Position numbers and translations under genes: made by a program. Below, piece by piece: positions 388-7,181 of a stretch of DNA of 7,522 nucleotides. The notes beneath the pieces are model-generated. The model saw only the letters and a program-made list of their open reading frames with translations. It was not told the origin of the DNA and did no database searches. Where the stretch lies: positions 1 through 7,522 of the forward strand of contig JAJYWM010000423.1 of NCBI GenBank assembly GCA_021791455.1. The letters run 5' to 3'. The stretch's first letter is position 1, and each line of letters opens with the position of its first letter. The stretch is from a bacterium (GTDB lineage: Bacteria; Chloroflexota; Dormibacteria; UBA8260; Bog-877).

Positions 388-2355
388 ATGAAGGCGATGT
401 TGAAACTTGGGTCACTGGGGAGGGTGCGTTCGCTGACCGTCGCACTTTCGGCCGCGCTCATCGTGTCCGGGTGTGCGTCGGCCGCCGCTTCTCACTCCAA
501 CTCCAGCACCGGTGGCACGGTCACCTTCGCCGAGCAGGCCAGCGCGCCGCCAAATTACATCTTCCCTCTAATGAGTGGAAACTACTTTGACCACAACAAT
601 CTGCCCTTCTTCGACTACCTCATGTACCGACCGCTGTACTGGTTCGGCGGCAACGGCCAGCCGGTGATCAACGAGAGTCTCAGCTTGGCCGAGCTCCCGA
701 CCTTCTCCCAGAACAACACGGTCGCCACGGTAAAGCTGAAGCACTGGAACTGGTCCGACGGTCGGCCCGTCACGGCACGGGACGTCGTCTTTTGGATGAA
801 TCTGCTCAGTGCGGCGACGGATCCTGGTGCTCCTACGGTCGGCAGCAGCACCTCGCCGGGTCCCGGCTGGGGCGCCGGCGTGCCAGGGGGCTTTCCGGAG
901 AATGTGGTGAGTTACAAAGCCACCGGCACCTACACCGTCGTGTTTCACCTCAATGCATCCTATAACCCGACTTGGTTTCTATACAACGAGCTGAGTCAGA
1001 TAACTCCGCTTCCCCAGGCCAGCTGGGATCGCCTCTCGACCTCCGGAACCGTGGGTGACTATGACATGGGTGCTCAGGCCCGCATGTTGGCTCCCGCGTC
1101 CGATGCTTTGCCAGCCAATTCGTACGTCACTGCCGACCCTGGGACGGCCTCGACCGGGGCCTTAGGGGTTGCCCAGTTCCTCAACTTGCAGTCCCAGAAC
1201 CTCTCCACGTACGCCACTAATCCGCTCTGGCAGGTGGTCGACGGACCCTTTAGGTTGGTCCAATTCACGACCAGCGGTTACGTCAAGCTGGTTCCAAACC
1301 GCGCATATTCGGGGTCTCCGAAGCCCAAGATTTCTGCGTTCGAAGAGGAGCCGTTCACGAGTGACAGCTCCGAGTTCGCTGCCCTGCGCAGCGGAGCCCT
1401 CACCATGGGTTACATTCCGGTGCAGGATCTGAACCAGGCTCCAGCTGTGGAGAAGCAGGAGGGGTACACCTTGGCTCAGTGGCACTCCCCGACCACCGTC
1501 TATTTCCCCTACAACTTCACGAACCCGATCGCGGGGCCGATATTCCGCCAGCTGTACTTTCGTCAAGCGTTTCAATCCCTGGTCAATCAAGAGCAGTACA
1601 TCAAGGATTTCTCGAGTGATTTGGGGGTGATAAACAACGGTCCCGTACCGGAATATCCACCCCACAATGTCGACGAAAGTCCGTTGATCTCGTCCGGGAA
1701 GCCCTTGTATCCCTTCAATCCGGCGAGGGCTGTGTCCTTGCTCAAGGCCAACGGTTGGTCGGTGGCGCCTGGTGGAACGACATACTGCGCCAGGCCCGGC
1801 ACTGCTACTGGCGACTGTGGTTCGGGCATCGGCAACCACCAAGCCCTTACCTTCTCGCTCCTCTACGCTAGCGGATCGGTACAGCTCACCAACGAGATGG
1901 AAGCTATGCAGTCCATCATGAAGTCGGCCGCGGGGATTACTTTGAACCTGACATCTTCGCCCTTTGCCACCGTGATCGGGACGGTGTTTAACAGCTGCAC
2001 CTTCAAGACTCCTTGCAAGAGCTGGCAACTGGCGGACTGGGGAGGGGGCTGGAACTACAACCCTGACAACTTTCCGACCGGAGGCGAGATCTTCCAAACA
2101 GGCGCTGCCAGCAATGCGGGAGACTACTCGAGCTCCGTCAACGACGCGAACATTCAGGCCACTCACACGGCACCGACACAGGCGGCTGAGTACAGCGCAC
2201 TCTACAAGTACGAGGACTACCTAGCCCAGCAGCTGCCGGTCGTGTGGATGCCTGACGGTCCTTATCTGATCGAAATGTACAAGTCTGATCTGCACGGCGT
2301 GCTCTCTAAGGGGGTCGATGGATTCAAGCTGTATCCCGAATTCCTTAGCTTCTGA
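388..2355 (+). CDS. ABC transporter substrate-binding lipoprotein, family 5 (peptide/nickel type)
   Basis: A 655-residue extracytoplasmic solute-binding protein of the SBP_bac_5 family, which delivers oligopeptides or other small ligands to an ABC importer. The N-terminus is a lipoprotein signal: basic residues, a hydrophobic stretch at about 16-26, and the lipobox V26-S-G-C29, so the mature protein should be lipid-anchored on the outer face of the membrane. A Ser/Thr-rich linker follows. The family hallmark WSDGRPVTARDVVFW lies at about 122-136, and NPARAVSLLKANGW at about 444-457. The length is slightly above the usual 500-600. Two close cysteine pairs, C467/C477 and C537/C543, could form disulfides outside the cell. 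The gene has its own promoter and a hairpin downstream. No permease or ATPase gene is visible, so the ligand and transporter partners are unknown. The start may be ATG 397 instead. Confidence 0.93.
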   Translation: MKAMLKLGSLGRVRSLTVALSAALIVSGCASAAASHSNSSTGGTVTFAEQASAPPNYIFPLMSGNYFDHNNLPFFDYLMYRPLYWFGGNGQPVINESLSLAELPTFSQNNTVATVKLKHWNWSDGRPVTARDVVFWMNLLSAATDPGAPTVGSSTSPGPGWGAGVPGGFPENVVSYKATGTYTVVFHLNASYNPTWFLYNELSQITPLPQASWDRLSTSGTVGDYDMGAQARMLAPASDALPANSYVTADPGTASTGALGVAQFLNLQSQNLSTYATNPLWQVVDGPFRLVQFTTSGYVKLVPNRAYSGSPKPKISAFEEEPFTSDSSEFAALRSGALTMGYIPVQDLNQAPAVEKQEGYTLAQWHSPTTVYFPYNFTNPIAGPIFRQLYFRQAFQSLVNQEQYIKDFSSDLGVINNGPVPEYPPHNVDESPLISSGKPLYPFNPARAVSLLKANGWSVAPGGTTYCARPGTATGDCGSGIGNHQALTFSLLYASGSVQLTNEMEAMQSIMKSAAGITLNLTSSPFATVIGTVFNSCTFKTPCKSWQLADWGGGWNYNPDNFPTGGEIFQTGAASNAGDYSSSVNDANIQATHTAPTQAAEYSALYKYEDYLAQQLPVVWMPDGPYLIEMYKSDLHGVLSKGVDGFKLYPEFLSF

Positions 2356-2637: not shown

Positions 2638-4074
2638 TCAAGGTGTCTGTCCGGTTCGGACCCACTCCTCAACGGCAGCCCGGGCTGAGGGTAGCGCGGT
2701 ACTCAATACCACCGGGCCGTCCTCGGTCACCAGCACATCGTCACCTATACGTGCCCCGATGCCTCGATACTCCGGCGGAACCGTTTCATCGTTGGCTTGG
2801 AAGTAGAGTCCGGGTTCCACCGTCAGCACCATGCCGGGGGCGAGATGGCCATTGGGATAGGAGTTCGGCGTGGCGTGAGCGCAGTCGTGCACATCGAGGC
2901 CCAGCATGTGGCTCGCGCCGTGCACCGTGTAACGGCGATGCAGGTGAGAATCCGCTGCCAGCGATTGCTCAGCGGGAATCGAGAGGACACCCAGGTCGTA
3001 CAGGCCTCGGGCCAGGACTGCTTGGGCAGCATCGTCCAGAGCATAGAAGGGATTGCCAACTCTAACTCGAACTATAGCCTCCTGCTGCGCCGCCCAGACT
3101 AGATCGTAGATGGTGCGCTGGGCGCGGGTGAAACGCCCTCCGATCGGCAGGGTCCTCGCAATGCTAGCTGTGTAGAATGACTTAGCCTCTACGCCAGCGT
3201 CGAGGAGGAGCAAGTCGCCAGATCGGAGCTGCCCGGAATTGCGATGCCAGTGCAATATCGTGGCGTGGGCGCCGGCGGCGGCGATCACCGGATAGCCAAC
3301 GTCATTGCCAGAGGTCCGTGCCGCACCGCAGAATATCGTCTCGACGTCACGCTCCGTCTGCATTTGATGAAGGTTACGGACAACTCGATCGAAAGCCGCC
3401 ACCGTCGCGTCGACGGCTTCCTTAAGGTACCGGATCTCGAGTTCATCCTTTATGAGGCGAAGATTGGCCAGGGCTGCTTGCAGGTCGTGATCAAGGGCCG
3501 TCGGCGGTAAATCCAGTCGATCGAGATCTGGGCTGATGCCGCGAACCACGGCAAGTGACGTGCGGGTGTTCACGAAGCTCGAAAGTGTAGCGCGTGGGGC
3601 GCCCCTGATCCCGAGACGCGCGGCCATCTCAGCGAGCCCCATCTTTGGCCCGACCCAGAACTCGCCGCGAATGCGATCTGTGAAAAAGTCAGGGGAGCTC
3701 GGGTCGGTATCTGGGTCGCTGAATAAGAGACTGGTGTGGCCGCCACCGGGAAGTGCATCCATCACGAGGACATCATTGGGAGAGGCTTCGCCGACCAGAT
3801 ATAGGAAGTCGCTAGAGGGTCGAAAGCGATACTTTGAGTCGGCCGATCGGACGACGAGCTGCCCGGCGGGAATTACTAAGCTGAGCCCCGGAAACTGCTC
3901 AGACAATCTACGTCGCCGATCTTGGTAGTGGTCTGCTCCTTCAATGGGCTCGTTGGTCGCAGGCGTGCGTTCTGCCCAGCCGGTCTGCAGGAAGTTCAGC
4001 AGGGCCACTGGCGGGGCCAAGTCGTGACCAGAGCGAGACCCCCCGGATCGTTCCAACCTGCGATCTTCTGACAC
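2638..4074 (-). CDS. Aminopeptidase P family (M24) protein with two missing metal ligands
   Basis: Homologue of Xaa-Pro aminopeptidase, a cytosolic enzyme that removes the residue before an N-terminal proline using two metal ions. The start chosen is GTG 4074 (478 residues), with GGAGG 9 nt upstream; an in-frame ATG at 4131 would give 497 residues but has no ribosome site and lies upstream of the predicted transcription start. Numbering below is for the 497-residue form. The AMP_N domain spans about 65-190 and the pita-bread catalytic domain about 230-475. Conserved are H294 (LHWHRN), D311 (LLLDAG), H404 and H408 (HGASHMLG), H415 (LDVHD), E439 (TVEPG) and R461. However, the second Asp of the first metal motif is Ser323 (YTASIAR) and the last Glu is Gly463 (RIGDD). 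These correspond to E. coli Asp271 and Glu406, the bridging ligands. The fold is certain; peptidase activity is doubtful. The reading frame is intact, so this is not an obvious pseudogene. Confidence 0.9.
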   Translation of the reverse strand: MSEDRRLERSGGSRSGHDLAPPVALLNFLQTGWAERTPATNEPIEGADHYQDRRRRLSEQFPGLSLVIPAGQLVVRSADSKYRFRPSSDFLYLVGEASPNDVLVMDALPGGGHTSLLFSDPDTDPSSPDFFTDRIRGEFWVGPKMGLAEMAARLGIRGAPRATLSSFVNTRTSLAVVRGISPDLDRLDLPPTALDHDLQAALANLRLIKDELEIRYLKEAVDATVAAFDRVVRNLHQMQTERDVETIFCGAARTSGNDVGYPVIAAAGAHATILHWHRNSGQLRSGDLLLLDAGVEAKSFYTASIARTLPIGGRFTRAQRTIYDLVWAAQQEAIVRVRVGNPFYALDDAAQAVLARGLYDLGVLSIPAEQSLAADSHLHRRYTVHGASHMLGLDVHDCAHATPNSYPNGHLAPGMVLTVEPGLYFQANDETVPPEYRGIGARIGDDVLVTEDGPVVLSTALPSARAAVEEWVRTGQTP

Positions 4075-4083
4075 GAACCTCGT

Positions 4084-4088
4084 CCTCC
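4084..4088 (-). promoter_or_regulatory. Ribosome binding site GGAGG deciding the M24 start
   Basis: On the minus strand GGAGG (plus-strand CCTCC) lies 9 nt before GTG 4074. The upstream alternative ATG 4131 has no comparable site. The predicted -10 box at 4122-4127 also places the start of the message downstream of 4131, which favours 4074. Confidence 0.55.
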
Positions 4089-4121
4089 GGTCAGCAGCAC
4101 TGTTAGGGCCCAGCAGCTGTG

Positions 4122-4149
4122 AGTTTAGCATCGCTGCCGACGACGTCAG
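4122..4149 (-). promoter_or_regulatory. Possible promoter of the M24 gene
   Basis: On the minus strand CTGACG (plus 4144-4149; 4 of 6 to TTGACA) and TAAACT (plus 4122-4127; 4 of 6 to TATAAT) are separated by 16 bp. Transcription would begin near 4115, leaving a leader of about 40 nt to GTG 4074. A long inverted repeat abuts the -35 box. The boxes are moderate matches, so this is tentative. Confidence 0.35.
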
Positions 4150-4172
4150 CTGAGCATGGACCCATGCTCAGC
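4149..4172. promoter_or_regulatory. Perfect 11+2+11 inverted repeat upstream of the M24 gene (candidate regulator site)
   Basis: GCTGAGCATGG (4149-4159) and CCATGCTCAGC (4162-4172) are exact reverse complements around the 2-bp centre AC. Such a long, tightly spaced palindrome is typical of a binding site for a dimeric HTH regulator. It touches the proposed -35 box of the M24 gene, and its centre is about 46 bp upstream of the predicted start, suiting an activator or a repressor. The arms differ from the palindrome at 97-119, so a different regulator is implied. A two-base loop makes an RNA hairpin less likely. Confidence 0.5.
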
Positions 4173-4639
4173 ATTTGGTGCTGGCCGGACGACAGGCAAG
4201 GGAACTGGCGGCGCGAGACTTTGCCAGTGTAAGCCATGGCAGCCGCCCGATGCACAGAGTCCGACGCAGCGCGAGATCCGGGGGCCGGAGAGAGGAGGAC
4301 CTACGCGGTGCGTGTGGCTCTACTCCGGCCTCACCGACCACGGTGGCCATGGACGATCGCGTACCAACGCCGTTGCGGCGATGATATGCGGGAAGTGGAG
4401 TAATCGGCGCCCCCACGGTCACGAAGGCCGGTTGTGGTGGCCCATCCCGCTGGTCTGTAGGACCTCGGGTAGGCTCGGCCTTGGTCGCCACGACTCCTGC
4501 CGGTGACATGGGAAACGCCCAACGACGTAACTTCATAGAAGGCGGCTGGGCCAAACGGGGAACGCGGGCATCTGTGGCCGACTCCAGTGCCGTCCGCAAC
4601 TGCACGTACACCATGGCCGATGACGCCGTGCCTTGGGCA

Positions 4640-4803
4640 CCCACTGTCCCGGGTACCACTCGCCCTGATGCCACCGCTCCCACCGGACGAAGCGCGCTCC
4701 CGCCGCGCGACTAGGACCTTCATCAGCCTGACCACGACCAATGCGATGATGGCCGGCCGGCGCCGAGTCCCAGATTGAGCATCGCGTCGTAGAAACCGGG
4801 CAT
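4640..4803 (-). pseudogene. Possible frameshifted remnant of a small membrane-protein gene
   Basis: From ATG 4803 the minus strand reads MPGFYDAMLNLGLGAG and then closes with a stop at 4723-4725. Another frame entered at about 4753 reads AIIALVVVRLMKVL followed by ARRERA, which resembles a membrane segment with a basic cytoplasmic flank. The switch falls in a GGCCGGCCGG tract, where slippage of one base would join the two frames. No family is recognised and there is no ribosome site before 4803. The downstream end is arbitrary. It may equally be chance. Confidence 0.2.
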
Positions 4804-4806
4804 TTC

Positions 4807-4836
4807 GATGGCTGATTCGTATGTCGCTCAGCCATC
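4807..4836. repeat. Perfect 9-bp inverted repeat with 12-nt loop
   Basis: GATGGCTGA (4807-4815) and TCAGCCATC (4828-4836) are exact complements around a 12-nt spacer. It lies about 200 nt beyond the threonine synthase stop and just before the possible remnant at 4803. No T-tract follows on either strand. It could be a distal terminator-like hairpin or an operator left from a lost gene. Confidence 0.4.
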
Positions 4837-5032
4837 ACGTCGCGGTGCAGTCGACTTCCGCGGGCCGGAATGCGGGGCAGGTAGGTCATGCGCCTGCGCT
4901 TGGTTACCAGCCGCGGCGCGTTCGCAGATTTGCTGGTACCGTCCGGAACGACACATTGCACGGTGCAGGTGGGGGCGGAGGCCGGCACGCCGCCACTCGG
5001 GTGCCAGTACTTAAAGCGACCTGCGTAGGGGT

Positions 5033-6247
5033 CTAGGCCTCCGGGATGCTTGACCCCTTGGCCAGGATAGGCACGGTCACCGCGACCGTGTCGGGGTACT
5101 TGATCCCCGCACCGGTGTTGAACACGACCACCTCTTCGTCGGCCGCTATCCACCCGGACCTGGCCAGCTGTGCTACAGCGGCAAAGCATGCGGCGCCCTC
5201 TGGGCAGATGAACGCCCCCTCCCTTCGCGCTAGGTGTTGTTGCGCAGCGAGGATTTCCTGATCGTCGACCGCTATGGCACGCCCCGATGTCGCATACACA
5301 GCCTGGAGAATGAGAAAGTCGCCCAGCGCCTTCGGCACGGTAATGCCGAAGGCTATCGTGGAGGCATTCTGCCACGGCTCCGAGAAATCGGCATGCTCTT
5401 CGAAAGCTCGCACGATGGGAGCGCAGCCTTGCGCCTGCACGGCTACCAGGCGGGGCAGTTTGGCCCCAAGCCACCCCATCGCCTGGCACTCAAGCAAGGC
5501 TTTGTAGATGCCGATGAGACCAACACCACCCCCCGTTGGGTAGAGGATTACATCTGGAACTCGCCACCCGAGTTGTTCAAAGAGCTCTAAGCCCATCGTT
5601 TTCTTGCCCTCCAGTCGGTAGGGCTCCTTCAGGGTCGAGGCATCCGCATATTTCTGCGTGTCGAGCGCGGCCGCCACCATAGCGCCAGCGTCACTAATGA
5701 GGCCGTCGACCAGAAATAAGCGGGCGCCGCTGATGGCACACTCGCCTCGCGGTATGGAAGGGGCGTCCTTGGGCATGACAATGAGGGTCTCGATTCCAGC
5801 CCTGGCCGCGTATGTCGCCCAAGCCGCACCGGCATTCCCGTTGGTCGGCATGGCAACCTTCGACACCCCAAGCTCCCGGGCCCGTGAGATACCCACCGCC
5901 GCGCCCCTAGCCTTGAAACTTCCGGTGGGAAGCAGCCCCTCGTCCTTCATGAGGAGATTGGAGAGCCCAAAGTCCGCGCCTAGTTTGGGCAGGGGCAGGA
6001 GCGGCGTCATGCCCTCCCCTAGGGTGACCACGTTGTGCGGGCTTCTAACTGGCAGGATCTCGTGGTACCGCCAAAGATCAGGGGGCCGAGTCGCGATATC
6101 GTCCCTCGTCCACGTCGCTGCGGCCGTCGCCAGGTCGTACCGCGCCAAAAGTGGTGCTCCGCAAGAGCAGGTGCTCTGCACCACGTCGGCATCGTGGTGC
6201 TTCCCGCATCGTCCACATTCGAGGTGAGTGAGATAGCTGAATTCCAA
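5033..6247 (-). CDS. thrC: Threonine synthase family PLP-dependent enzyme
   Basis: A fold-type II PLP enzyme; threonine synthase converts O-phosphohomoserine to threonine and phosphate in the cytosol. The start chosen is TTG 6247 (404 residues), preceded by AGGAG at 5-nt spacing and giving the usual N-terminus EFSYLTHLECGRCG; the upstream GTG 6304 has no ribosome site. In the 404-residue form the N-terminal zinc knuckle has Cys 11, 14, 27 and 29. The PLP lysine is K112 in PTGSFKARG, the cofactor asparagine motif is TNGNAGAAW at about 136-144, the phosphate-binding loop PTGGGVGLIG is at about 237-246, and NTGAGIKYPDT lies near the C-terminus. The length suits the family, and no key residue appears lost. 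It follows a YheO-type regulator by 88 nt, probably in one transcript, without thrA or thrB nearby. A catabolic or specialised relative with another substrate is therefore possible. Confidence 0.88.
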   Translation of the reverse strand: MEFSYLTHLECGRCGKHHDADVVQSTCSCGAPLLARYDLATAAATWTRDDIATRPPDLWRYHEILPVRSPHNVVTLGEGMTPLLPLPKLGADFGLSNLLMKDEGLLPTGSFKARGAAVGISRARELGVSKVAMPTNGNAGAAWATYAARAGIETLIVMPKDAPSIPRGECAISGARLFLVDGLISDAGAMVAAALDTQKYADASTLKEPYRLEGKKTMGLELFEQLGWRVPDVILYPTGGGVGLIGIYKALLECQAMGWLGAKLPRLVAVQAQGCAPIVRAFEEHADFSEPWQNASTIAFGITVPKALGDFLILQAVYATSGRAIAVDDQEILAAQQHLARREGAFICPEGAACFAAVAQLARSGWIAADEEVVVFNTGAGIKYPDTVAVTVPILAKGSSIPEA

Positions 6248-6252
6248 ATTCG

Positions 6253-6257
6253 CTCCT
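6253..6257 (-). promoter_or_regulatory. Ribosome binding site AGGAG supporting the TTG start of the threonine synthase gene
   Basis: On the minus strand AGGAG (plus-strand CTCCT) is 5 nt before TTG 6247. The alternative GTG 6304 lacks any purine-rich site and would add 19 Arg/Ala-rich residues not typical of the family. A second AGGAG further upstream (about 6288-6292) has no start codon at a useful distance. Confidence 0.6.
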
Positions 6258-6335
6258 GATGCCCCGGCGCTCCGCCTGGGTTTATCTCTCCTAGCTGTCT
6301 GCACAAGTGCGTCTGGCCGCTACTCTCTCGGCGGC

Positions 6336-7181
6336 TCAGTTCGCGGTCCGCACCGGGTGATCTTGAGGTTCCGGTCCCCCATCGCTGCTACGCAGCTCAT
6401 TGAGGTAGTTGTAGATTGTGTAGCGACTCACCCCCAGGGTTGCGGCGATGGAGTCGACTGCGGATCGGATCATAAAGAGGCCGCTCTGGTCAGCGGCCCG
6501 AACCACTTCAAGCTTATGGGCCTTCTGCATGAGGTGTATGGGTATCCCAAGCTGATCAACGGCCTGCTGTACCACTGCCTCCGCGAGTTCTTCGACGCTG
6601 CGAGCGAAGACCTCACCGTGCTCGGTGCTTGGTGCCGCTATGGCGCTTGCGGTTGACTCGAGATGGCCCCTCGCCGCGGAGTCCACTCCCGTCATGCCCA
6701 AGCTGCTGTGCCCGAGCGCGGCCATGCCGCTCAAGACATCGCTCAGTGCCTGGTGGAGACCAAGCAAGCTACTGATGTCGGTGTTCAGGCATAGGCACGC
6801 GTAGGGGCGCCCCTCATGGTCCCTCAGAAAGATGGTAGAAGACTGGAAAGTTCGGCCGCGATGGCTTACCCGGTACCGGAGCATGTCTTCAGTTTGGTGC
6901 TCCTTGATGCGGCGCAGCATGAGATCGGTCATCGGTCCGCCGACGGTGCGCCCTGTAAGGTTTCCACCGACGGCCACTATGGAGTTGGGAAGGCGGGCGA
7001 GGTCATGCAAGACGACTTCCACGTTCGGTCCCAACGCCGTAGCCAAGGCAGGCGTGATCGCCCCTAGGTGGCGGAGAACCGATTCTGCGTCTACAACCGG
7101 TCCCAGCATATCTCCCCGGGCAACGGCACCTCCCCCGCCGCTCACGCGATGTGTCCGAGACGCGGTGTGCCTACTCGCCAC
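6336..7181 (-). CDS. YheO/DauR-type transcriptional regulator (PAS-like domain plus HTH)
   Basis: A 281-residue DNA-binding regulator. Residues about 33-145 form the YheO-like PAS domain, with the characteristic GPNVEVVLHDL (51-61), NSIVAVGGNLTGR (66-78) and FQSSTIFLRDHEGRPYACLC (112-131). The C-terminal helix-turn-helix spans about 215-263 and ends in AVDSIAATLGVSRYTIYNYL (241-260). The named relative DauR of Pseudomonas represses a D-arginine utilisation operon, and other members adjoin amino-acid genes; the effector here is unknown. The gene precedes the threonine synthase homologue on the same strand and likely controls it. Start candidates are GTG 7181, GTG 7145 and ATG 7109; none has an ideal ribosome site. 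ATG 7109 (GGGGAG only 2 nt away) would remove a low-complexity 24-residue N-terminus outside the domain. GTG 7181 is the longest. Confidence 0.9.
   Translation of the reverse strand: MASRHTASRTHRVSGGGGAVARGDMLGPVVDAESVLRHLGAITPALATALGPNVEVVLHDLARLPNSIVAVGGNLTGRTVGGPMTDLMLRRIKEHQTEDMLRYRVSHRGRTFQSSTIFLRDHEGRPYACLCLNTDISSLLGLHQALSDVLSGMAALGHSSLGMTGVDSAARGHLESTASAIAAPSTEHGEVFARSVEELAEAVVQQAVDQLGIPIHLMQKAHKLEVVRAADQSGLFMIRSAVDSIAATLGVSRYTIYNYLNELRSSDGGPEPQDHPVRTAN

Follow-up and report, generated by a model that had tools for sequence, protein, structure and literature searches.

The bacterial aminopeptidases P (PepP; MEROPS M24B), such as those of Escherichia coli (1a16) and Pseudomonas aeruginosa (5wze), are dinuclear metalloenzymes. 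In the P. aeruginosa enzyme MnA is bound by H354, D271, E384, and E408 and MnB by D260, D271, and E408, with Asp271 and the second Glu each contacting both Mn ions (PMC5723419), and E. coli PepP mutants at Asp260 or Asp271 are reported to be inactive (PMC10377022). A natural loss of both bridging residues has been described in the aminopeptidase P-related domain of PID-5 from Caenorhabditis elegans, in which Asn868 stands for the bridging Asp and Gly981 for the bridging Glu, the site A His and Glu and the fold being kept; its authors predict PID-5 to be a pseudoenzyme and APP-1 has been identified as its interactor (PMC10377022). Other M24-type proteins have also departed from peptidase activity. 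PA2G4/Ebp1-type proteins are described as non-peptidase pseudoenzymes, although they are kin to methionine aminopeptidase rather than to PepP (PMC3888471), and the DMSP lyase DddP combines an M24-type fold with altered chemistry but retains a full dinuclear iron site (PMC4108388). No bacterial pseudo-aminopeptidase P is described in the titles and abstract openings that made up the literature searched, most subscription papers lying outside it.

The window, by which we mean the whole stretch of 7,522 nucleotides analyzed here, carries an M24B gene located between a gene for a family 5 solute-binding protein and genes for a threonine synthase-type enzyme and a YheO-like regulator:

388..2355, plus strand: family 5 extracellular solute-binding protein, a peptide-type ABC transporter component (PF00496, 2.5e-42)
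2638..4074, minus strand: M24B aminopeptidase P-like gene (PF00557, 2.6e-48, and PF05195, 2.5e-15)
5033..6304, minus strand: threonine synthase-type PLP enzyme (NF006050, 637 bits, cut-off 303)
6336..7181, minus strand: YheO-like PAS/HTH regulator (PF08348 and PF13309)

Both the AMP_N and the Peptidase_M24 matches of the M24B protein exceed the curated Pfam cut-offs, its translation contains no stop, and its closest solved relatives by sequence are the Yersinia and E. coli PepP (HMMER). Two start codons are conceivable, an ATG at 4131 (ORF 2638-4131, 497 aa) and a GTG at 4074 (478 aa); the GTG looks better because a GGAGG sits nine bases 5' of it. Residue numbers follow the 497-aa ORF throughout. 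The protein falls short of the NCBIfam equivalog PRK10879 for PepP (219.7 bits, cut-off 465), a result that does not discriminate since its relatives P0002, P0003, P0004, and P0020 also miss this cut-off (214-242 bits). Judged by its parts, it has the domains, the His/Arg shell, and the fold of PepP together with an incomplete version of the five-ligand set D, D, H, E, E.

In the HMMER alignment with the E. coli and Yersinia enzymes, its YTASIART lies against YAGDITRT, which contains Asp271, and its RIGDD against RIEDD, which contains Glu406. The residues concerned, and the ligands that the alignment indicates as kept, are the following:

3163..3165, minus strand: Ser323 (AGC) at the site of the bridging Asp (E. 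coli Asp271); the closest Asp codon differs from AGC at two bases
2743..2745, minus strand: Gly463 (GGT) at the site of the bridging Glu (E. coli Glu406); the closest Glu codon differs from GGT at two bases
3157..3159, minus strand: Ala325 (GCG) for the Thr of the D-x-T-R motif, a third change
3199..3201, minus strand: Asp311, kept metal ligand (E. coli Asp260)
2908..2910, minus strand: His408, kept metal ligand (E. coli His354)
2815..2817, minus strand: Glu439, kept metal ligand (E. coli Glu383)

Codons, translation, and alignment agree on Ser323 and Gly463 at the Asp271 and Glu406 positions, as a preliminary description of this DNA had read them. The alignment likewise bears out its statement that Asp311, His408, and Glu439 persist along with His294, His404, His415, and Arg461, the equivalents of E. 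coli His243, His350, His361, and Arg404, to which we presume substrate-shell roles. The change T325A, absent from that description, lies two residues from Ser323 in the same motif, at a column where Thr is universal, both in the 226 background rows of our comparison and in a second set of proteins (111/111). The window protein therefore resembles bacterial PepP in domain order, pita-bread fold, three of the five metal ligands, and the shell His and Arg residues, but has Ser, Gly, and Ala where PepP has the bridging Asp271, the bridging Glu406, and the Thr of D-x-T-R. The bridging role that the preliminary description assigned to the Asp271 and Glu positions matches the P. aeruginosa enzyme (PMC5723419).

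We compared these positions across two sets of homologues. The first (n = 228) comprised 119 proteins, P0002-P0120, drawn from the best 120 of 7993 matches listed, and 109 of 110 loci, L004 being left out as identical to L081; P0001 was set aside. The second consisted of 111 further proteins that neither duplicate a first-set sequence nor form part of one. The bridging-Asp position is Asp in all 339 other homologues (228/228 and 111/111) and the bridging-Glu position is Glu in 337 of the 339 (227/228, with one Asp in P0017, and 110/111, with one gap), many of these rows being closely related and not independent. P0001, encoded on another contig (5546 bases), carries the Ser and the Gly too. 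It is identical to the window protein over the 478-aa gene, the one difference, at residue 18, falling ahead of the start codon that we favor, and its cluster holds 11 member sequences, the two residues having been read in P0001. The next relatives among the matches listed, P0002 (74% identity) and P0003 (71%), both have Asp and Glu. As far as their sequences indicate, the substitutions are confined, among the homologues examined, to the one lineage of the window and P0001, and nothing points to an established subfamily with a rewired site, since the nearest relatives keep both carboxylates. The preliminary description had named as unfavorable to its argument a situation in which close homologues all have Asp and Glu, and this is largely what the closest ones, at 71-74% identity, present. 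It had also looked to relatives sharing the Ser and the Gly, of which the near-identical P0001 is one, with none further among the matches listed, and to actinobacterial PepP for comparison, whereas the named relatives nearest to the window protein, among those listed, are Candidatus Dormibacteria. More distant Ser/Gly cases may exist, because the first search covered the best 120 of 7993 matches and a second one the best 120 of 1571.

That second search, made with residues 306-346, led us to reject a widespread Ser/Gly subfamily: Ser occurs only in P0001, and the remaining 119 of its best 120 matches (111 new and eight first-set rows) have Asp.

P0001 also bears on the suspicion that the odd residues come from a sequencing or assembly artefact, which we consider highly improbable. 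The window may be a metagenome record, a type of sequence in which consensus errors would be commoner. However, an assembly error is unlikely because a near-identical gene on a separate contig, albeit perhaps from the same sample, has the same residues together with a difference at codon 18, 5' of the probable start; in addition, the two codons are each two bases off, and the neighboring threonine synthase-type protein of the window is clean, with changes at 0 of 150 near-invariant columns. On these three grounds sequencing error was judged unlikely as well.

A quick tree of 88 rows places the window, P0002, and P0003 together as a clade, with support, within the PepP of Dormibacteria. The end branches measure 0.38 for the window, the longest, and 0.14 and 0.24 for the others, and the clade stem measures 0.97, a length that makes its placement unsure. 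The M24B gene thus appears to be a fast-diverged three-row offshoot of Dormibacteria PepP. P0002 has a unique change of its own, G313V, in which Val replaces the DAG-motif Gly, a residue invariant in the 226 background rows and adjacent to the Asp260 ligand, and because of it catalytic constraint may be fading across the whole clade.

A serious rival to the reading that we prefer below, and the next after it, is recent inactivation with early decay. The gene would have become dispensable in this lineage, its missing ligands would reflect neutral hits that became fixed, and stops or frameshifts would be yet to come. We regard this as possible, if doubtful. The intact bridging positions of the nearest relatives, the damage to a conserved Gly in P0002, the long window end branch and the stem of 0.97, and some 900 bp upstream of the gene devoid of any recognized gene are all consistent with it, as is the third-position G+C of the M24B gene, which at 0.661 falls inside the intergenic range (0.615-0.695), whereas the three neighboring genes have 0.70-0.75. 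Decay is harder to reconcile with the frame without stop, with the two base changes needed for each of the replacements of Asp by AGC and of Glu by GGT, and with the distribution of the changes, which cluster at the metal site.

This distribution can be followed at several levels of conservation. Three of the 77 columns with ≥99% conservation are changed in the window (D323S, T325A, and E463G), against two in P0002 (G313V and Q445H) and two in P0003. Over the 148 columns with ≥90% conservation the totals are similar (11 changes in the window, 10 in P0002, and 10 in P0003), and at seven of these columns all three depart from the consensus. The changes found only in the window, with both sisters at consensus, are E223N, D323S, T325A, and E463G, three of the four being at or beside bridging ligands. 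That at least two of four random changes in 148 columns should fall on the five ligands has P = 0.005, and the corresponding concentration for three changes in 77 columns P = 0.010, both statistics being partly post hoc since the motif was noticed before the test. Among the 226 background rows, six have at least three changes at ≥99% columns, one of them, L110, being a truncated match. The number of near-invariant changes is unremarkable; their placement on ligands is unusual.

The rest of the protein speaks of constraint. Of 60 window-specific changes relative to P0002 and P0003, only nine lie in the 191 of 448 columns with low entropy (binomial P 4e-6, tested against an even spread over columns), and of the nine, three or more (81, 101, and 445) more plausibly arose in the ancestor of the sisters. 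The low-entropy columns being spared, most of the window branch therefore evolved under constraint, and their protection counts against decay. The low-entropy share does not differ significantly between the window (9/60) and the sisters (5/57; Fisher P 0.40). We also simulated neutral evolution on the window gene (six t values from 0.005 to 0.1, 4000 runs each, no indels). Runs that stayed free of stops, took three conserved hits or fewer, and struck two ligands or more made up at most 0.22% of cases; scored as a pattern with at least one double-hit codon, the outcome arose in at most 1.4%, so that the joint probability under decay is at most 0.2-1.4%. The earlier argument that losing two ligands in an intact frame tells against random decay gains moderate support from these partly post hoc results (three changes in 77 columns, all in metal-site motifs, double-hit codons, no stop, and the simulation), although it is weakened by the closest homologues, whose Asp and Glu go most of the way toward what its authors had named as contrary evidence.

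Structure modeling, which the preliminary description had proposed, indicates that the PepP fold is retained. The AlphaFold2 model (59 sequences) has a pLDDT of 86.3 and a pTM of 0.85, and its top Foldseek matches are structures of aminopeptidase P, one of them the D271A mutant 2bwu, with TM-scores against E. coli PepP entries of 0.86-0.88 by target length and 0.76-0.78 by query length. For P0003, modeled with the same 59 sequences headed by P0003, the pLDDT is 90.0. One segment stands out in the window model:

3232..3291, minus strand: residues 281-300 with His294 (E. coli His243), AlphaFold2 confidence 61 and 66, overlapping blocks of P0003 86-91

The predicted drop in this segment cannot be pinned on the lost ligands because the window has other changes in the same stretch.

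With Asp271 and Glu406 replaced, site A retains only His408 and Glu439 and site B only Asp311, which makes a dinuclear metal centre very unlikely. An active enzyme with a rewired mononuclear site could in principle hold one ion on Asp311, His408, and Glu439 and carry out hydrolysis or another reaction, but we find this quite improbable. The three ligands and the His/Arg shell are indeed kept, and DddP illustrates that M24-fold proteins can change their chemistry, although DddP does so with its full dinuclear site (PMC4108388). Asp271 mutants of the E. coli enzyme are reported to be inactive (PMC10377022), no positive sign of a compensating ligand is seen at the sequence level, and the confidence of the predicted model near the active-site His294 is below that of the P0003 model. 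The preliminary description had offered a mononuclear or differently wired site and a non-peptidase as alternatives; the former finds no positive support, whereas the latter is the most likely reading. Its comparisons with creatinase and Spt16 are, we assume, more distant analogies for the window protein than PID-5.

We accordingly favor, while granting it about an even chance of being correct, a lineage-specific pseudo-aminopeptidase P resembling PID-5 of C. elegans. A PepP of the Dormibacteria type, sited unusually in the genome with genes for a peptide-type binding protein and an amino acid enzyme as neighbors, would have diverged fast and then lost both bridging carboxylates and the nearby Thr. 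Without the bridging Asp and Glu the dinuclear centre would fail to form and Xaa-Pro hydrolysis would be lost, and the folded protein might still bind Xaa-Pro peptides through its kept His/Arg shell, a function that the kept shell and fold would suit. Its role could then be that of a non-cutting peptide binder or of a partner of an active PepP subunit. The resemblance to PID-5 lies in the loss of both bridging residues with the site A His and Glu and the fold kept; unlike the bacterial window protein, which retains both of these residues, PID-5 also lacks the equivalents of Asp260 and His243, and it has an eTudor domain (PMC10377022). The substitutions themselves, P0001, the sparing of conserved columns, the simulation, the fold, the E. 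coli mutants, and the PID-5 precedent all point to a pseudoenzyme. Against it stand the restriction to one lineage, the intact sisters, G313V in P0002, the long end branch, the similar change totals, the third-position G+C, the background rows with at least three changes, and, for the partner model, the lack of a second full-length PepP in the genomes of the related order (0/50). If real, the case would be one in which nature has cleanly taken both bridging residues out of a dinuclear peptidase and left the pocket around them in place, and it would let one ask what an M24 pocket does without metals and how pseudoenzymes begin. It is also a warning that naming by domain only is risky, since the source records of many relatives call them Xaa-Pro aminopeptidase.

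The genomic setting was compared with that in the order of the genome G136, which also contains Candidatus Amunia macphersoniae (phylum Candidatus Dormiibacterota) and to which the host likely belongs, a placement left unsettled because a YheO-like regulator matches in only two of the 50 genomes of the order. A PepP match occurs in 31 of these 50 genomes and two full-length copies in none (0/50), G312 having a partial piece on each of two contigs. Identity to the window protein is only 48-57% for the PepP of the order genomes that were fetched. In five of the eight larger PepP loci fetched from the order, PepP adjoins genes for a carbohydrate phosphorylase and a DUF6909 protein, names that rest on one locus, L136. 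Automatic gene calls in these high-GC loci were partly in the wrong frame, and we used only homology-backed calls. The four enlarged threonine synthase loci contain no PepP match. Since the usual neighbors are absent from the window and the threonine synthase loci of relatives are without PepP, the M24B gene lies outside its usual neighborhood, in an apparent peptide and amino acid use locus. A bolder version of our preferred reading, which we think unlikely, is a PID-5 counterpart of independent origin: selection would have disarmed a PepP by taking away no more than the bridging Asp and Glu and the Thr close by, and the protein would now trap peptides containing proline, or tune the activity of a working PepP, within a locus for peptide uptake and amino acid use.

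In two of the four enlarged threonine synthase loci (L133 and L134), family 5 solute-binding genes, in at least two copies each, adjoin the threonine synthase-type gene. Six near-identical variants of the window threonine synthase (P0121-P0126) occur on 29 contigs altogether, so the species has been sampled repeatedly. These database variants start at residue 20 of ORF 5033-6304, and for this reason the true start is probably that residue. The interval 4132-5032 between the M24 and threonine synthase genes (about 900 bp, 66% G+C) contains no recognized gene. Among its four overlapping ORFs (six were scanned), none has a Pfam match up to E 0.1 that would mark a remnant gene, six-frame pieces of the gaps have no match in the fetched loci, and promoter and terminator signals between 2300 and 5100 are at chance level.

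Some homologues show peculiarities of their own. The Asp of P0017 is the only residue other than Glu at the bridging-Glu position among the 339, besides the one gap. The His404 position (E. coli His350) is Cys or Ala in five loci from Streptomyces and Kitasatospora (L023, L061, L063, L078, and L080), all with metal ligands kept, and also in 13 of the 111 second-set proteins. Two loci labeled Klebsiella pneumoniae (L009) and Bifidobacterium breve (L028) come from bins that may be misnamed because their PepP genes resemble those of other phyla, that of L009 grouping with Myxococcota and Eremiobacterota rows in the tree.
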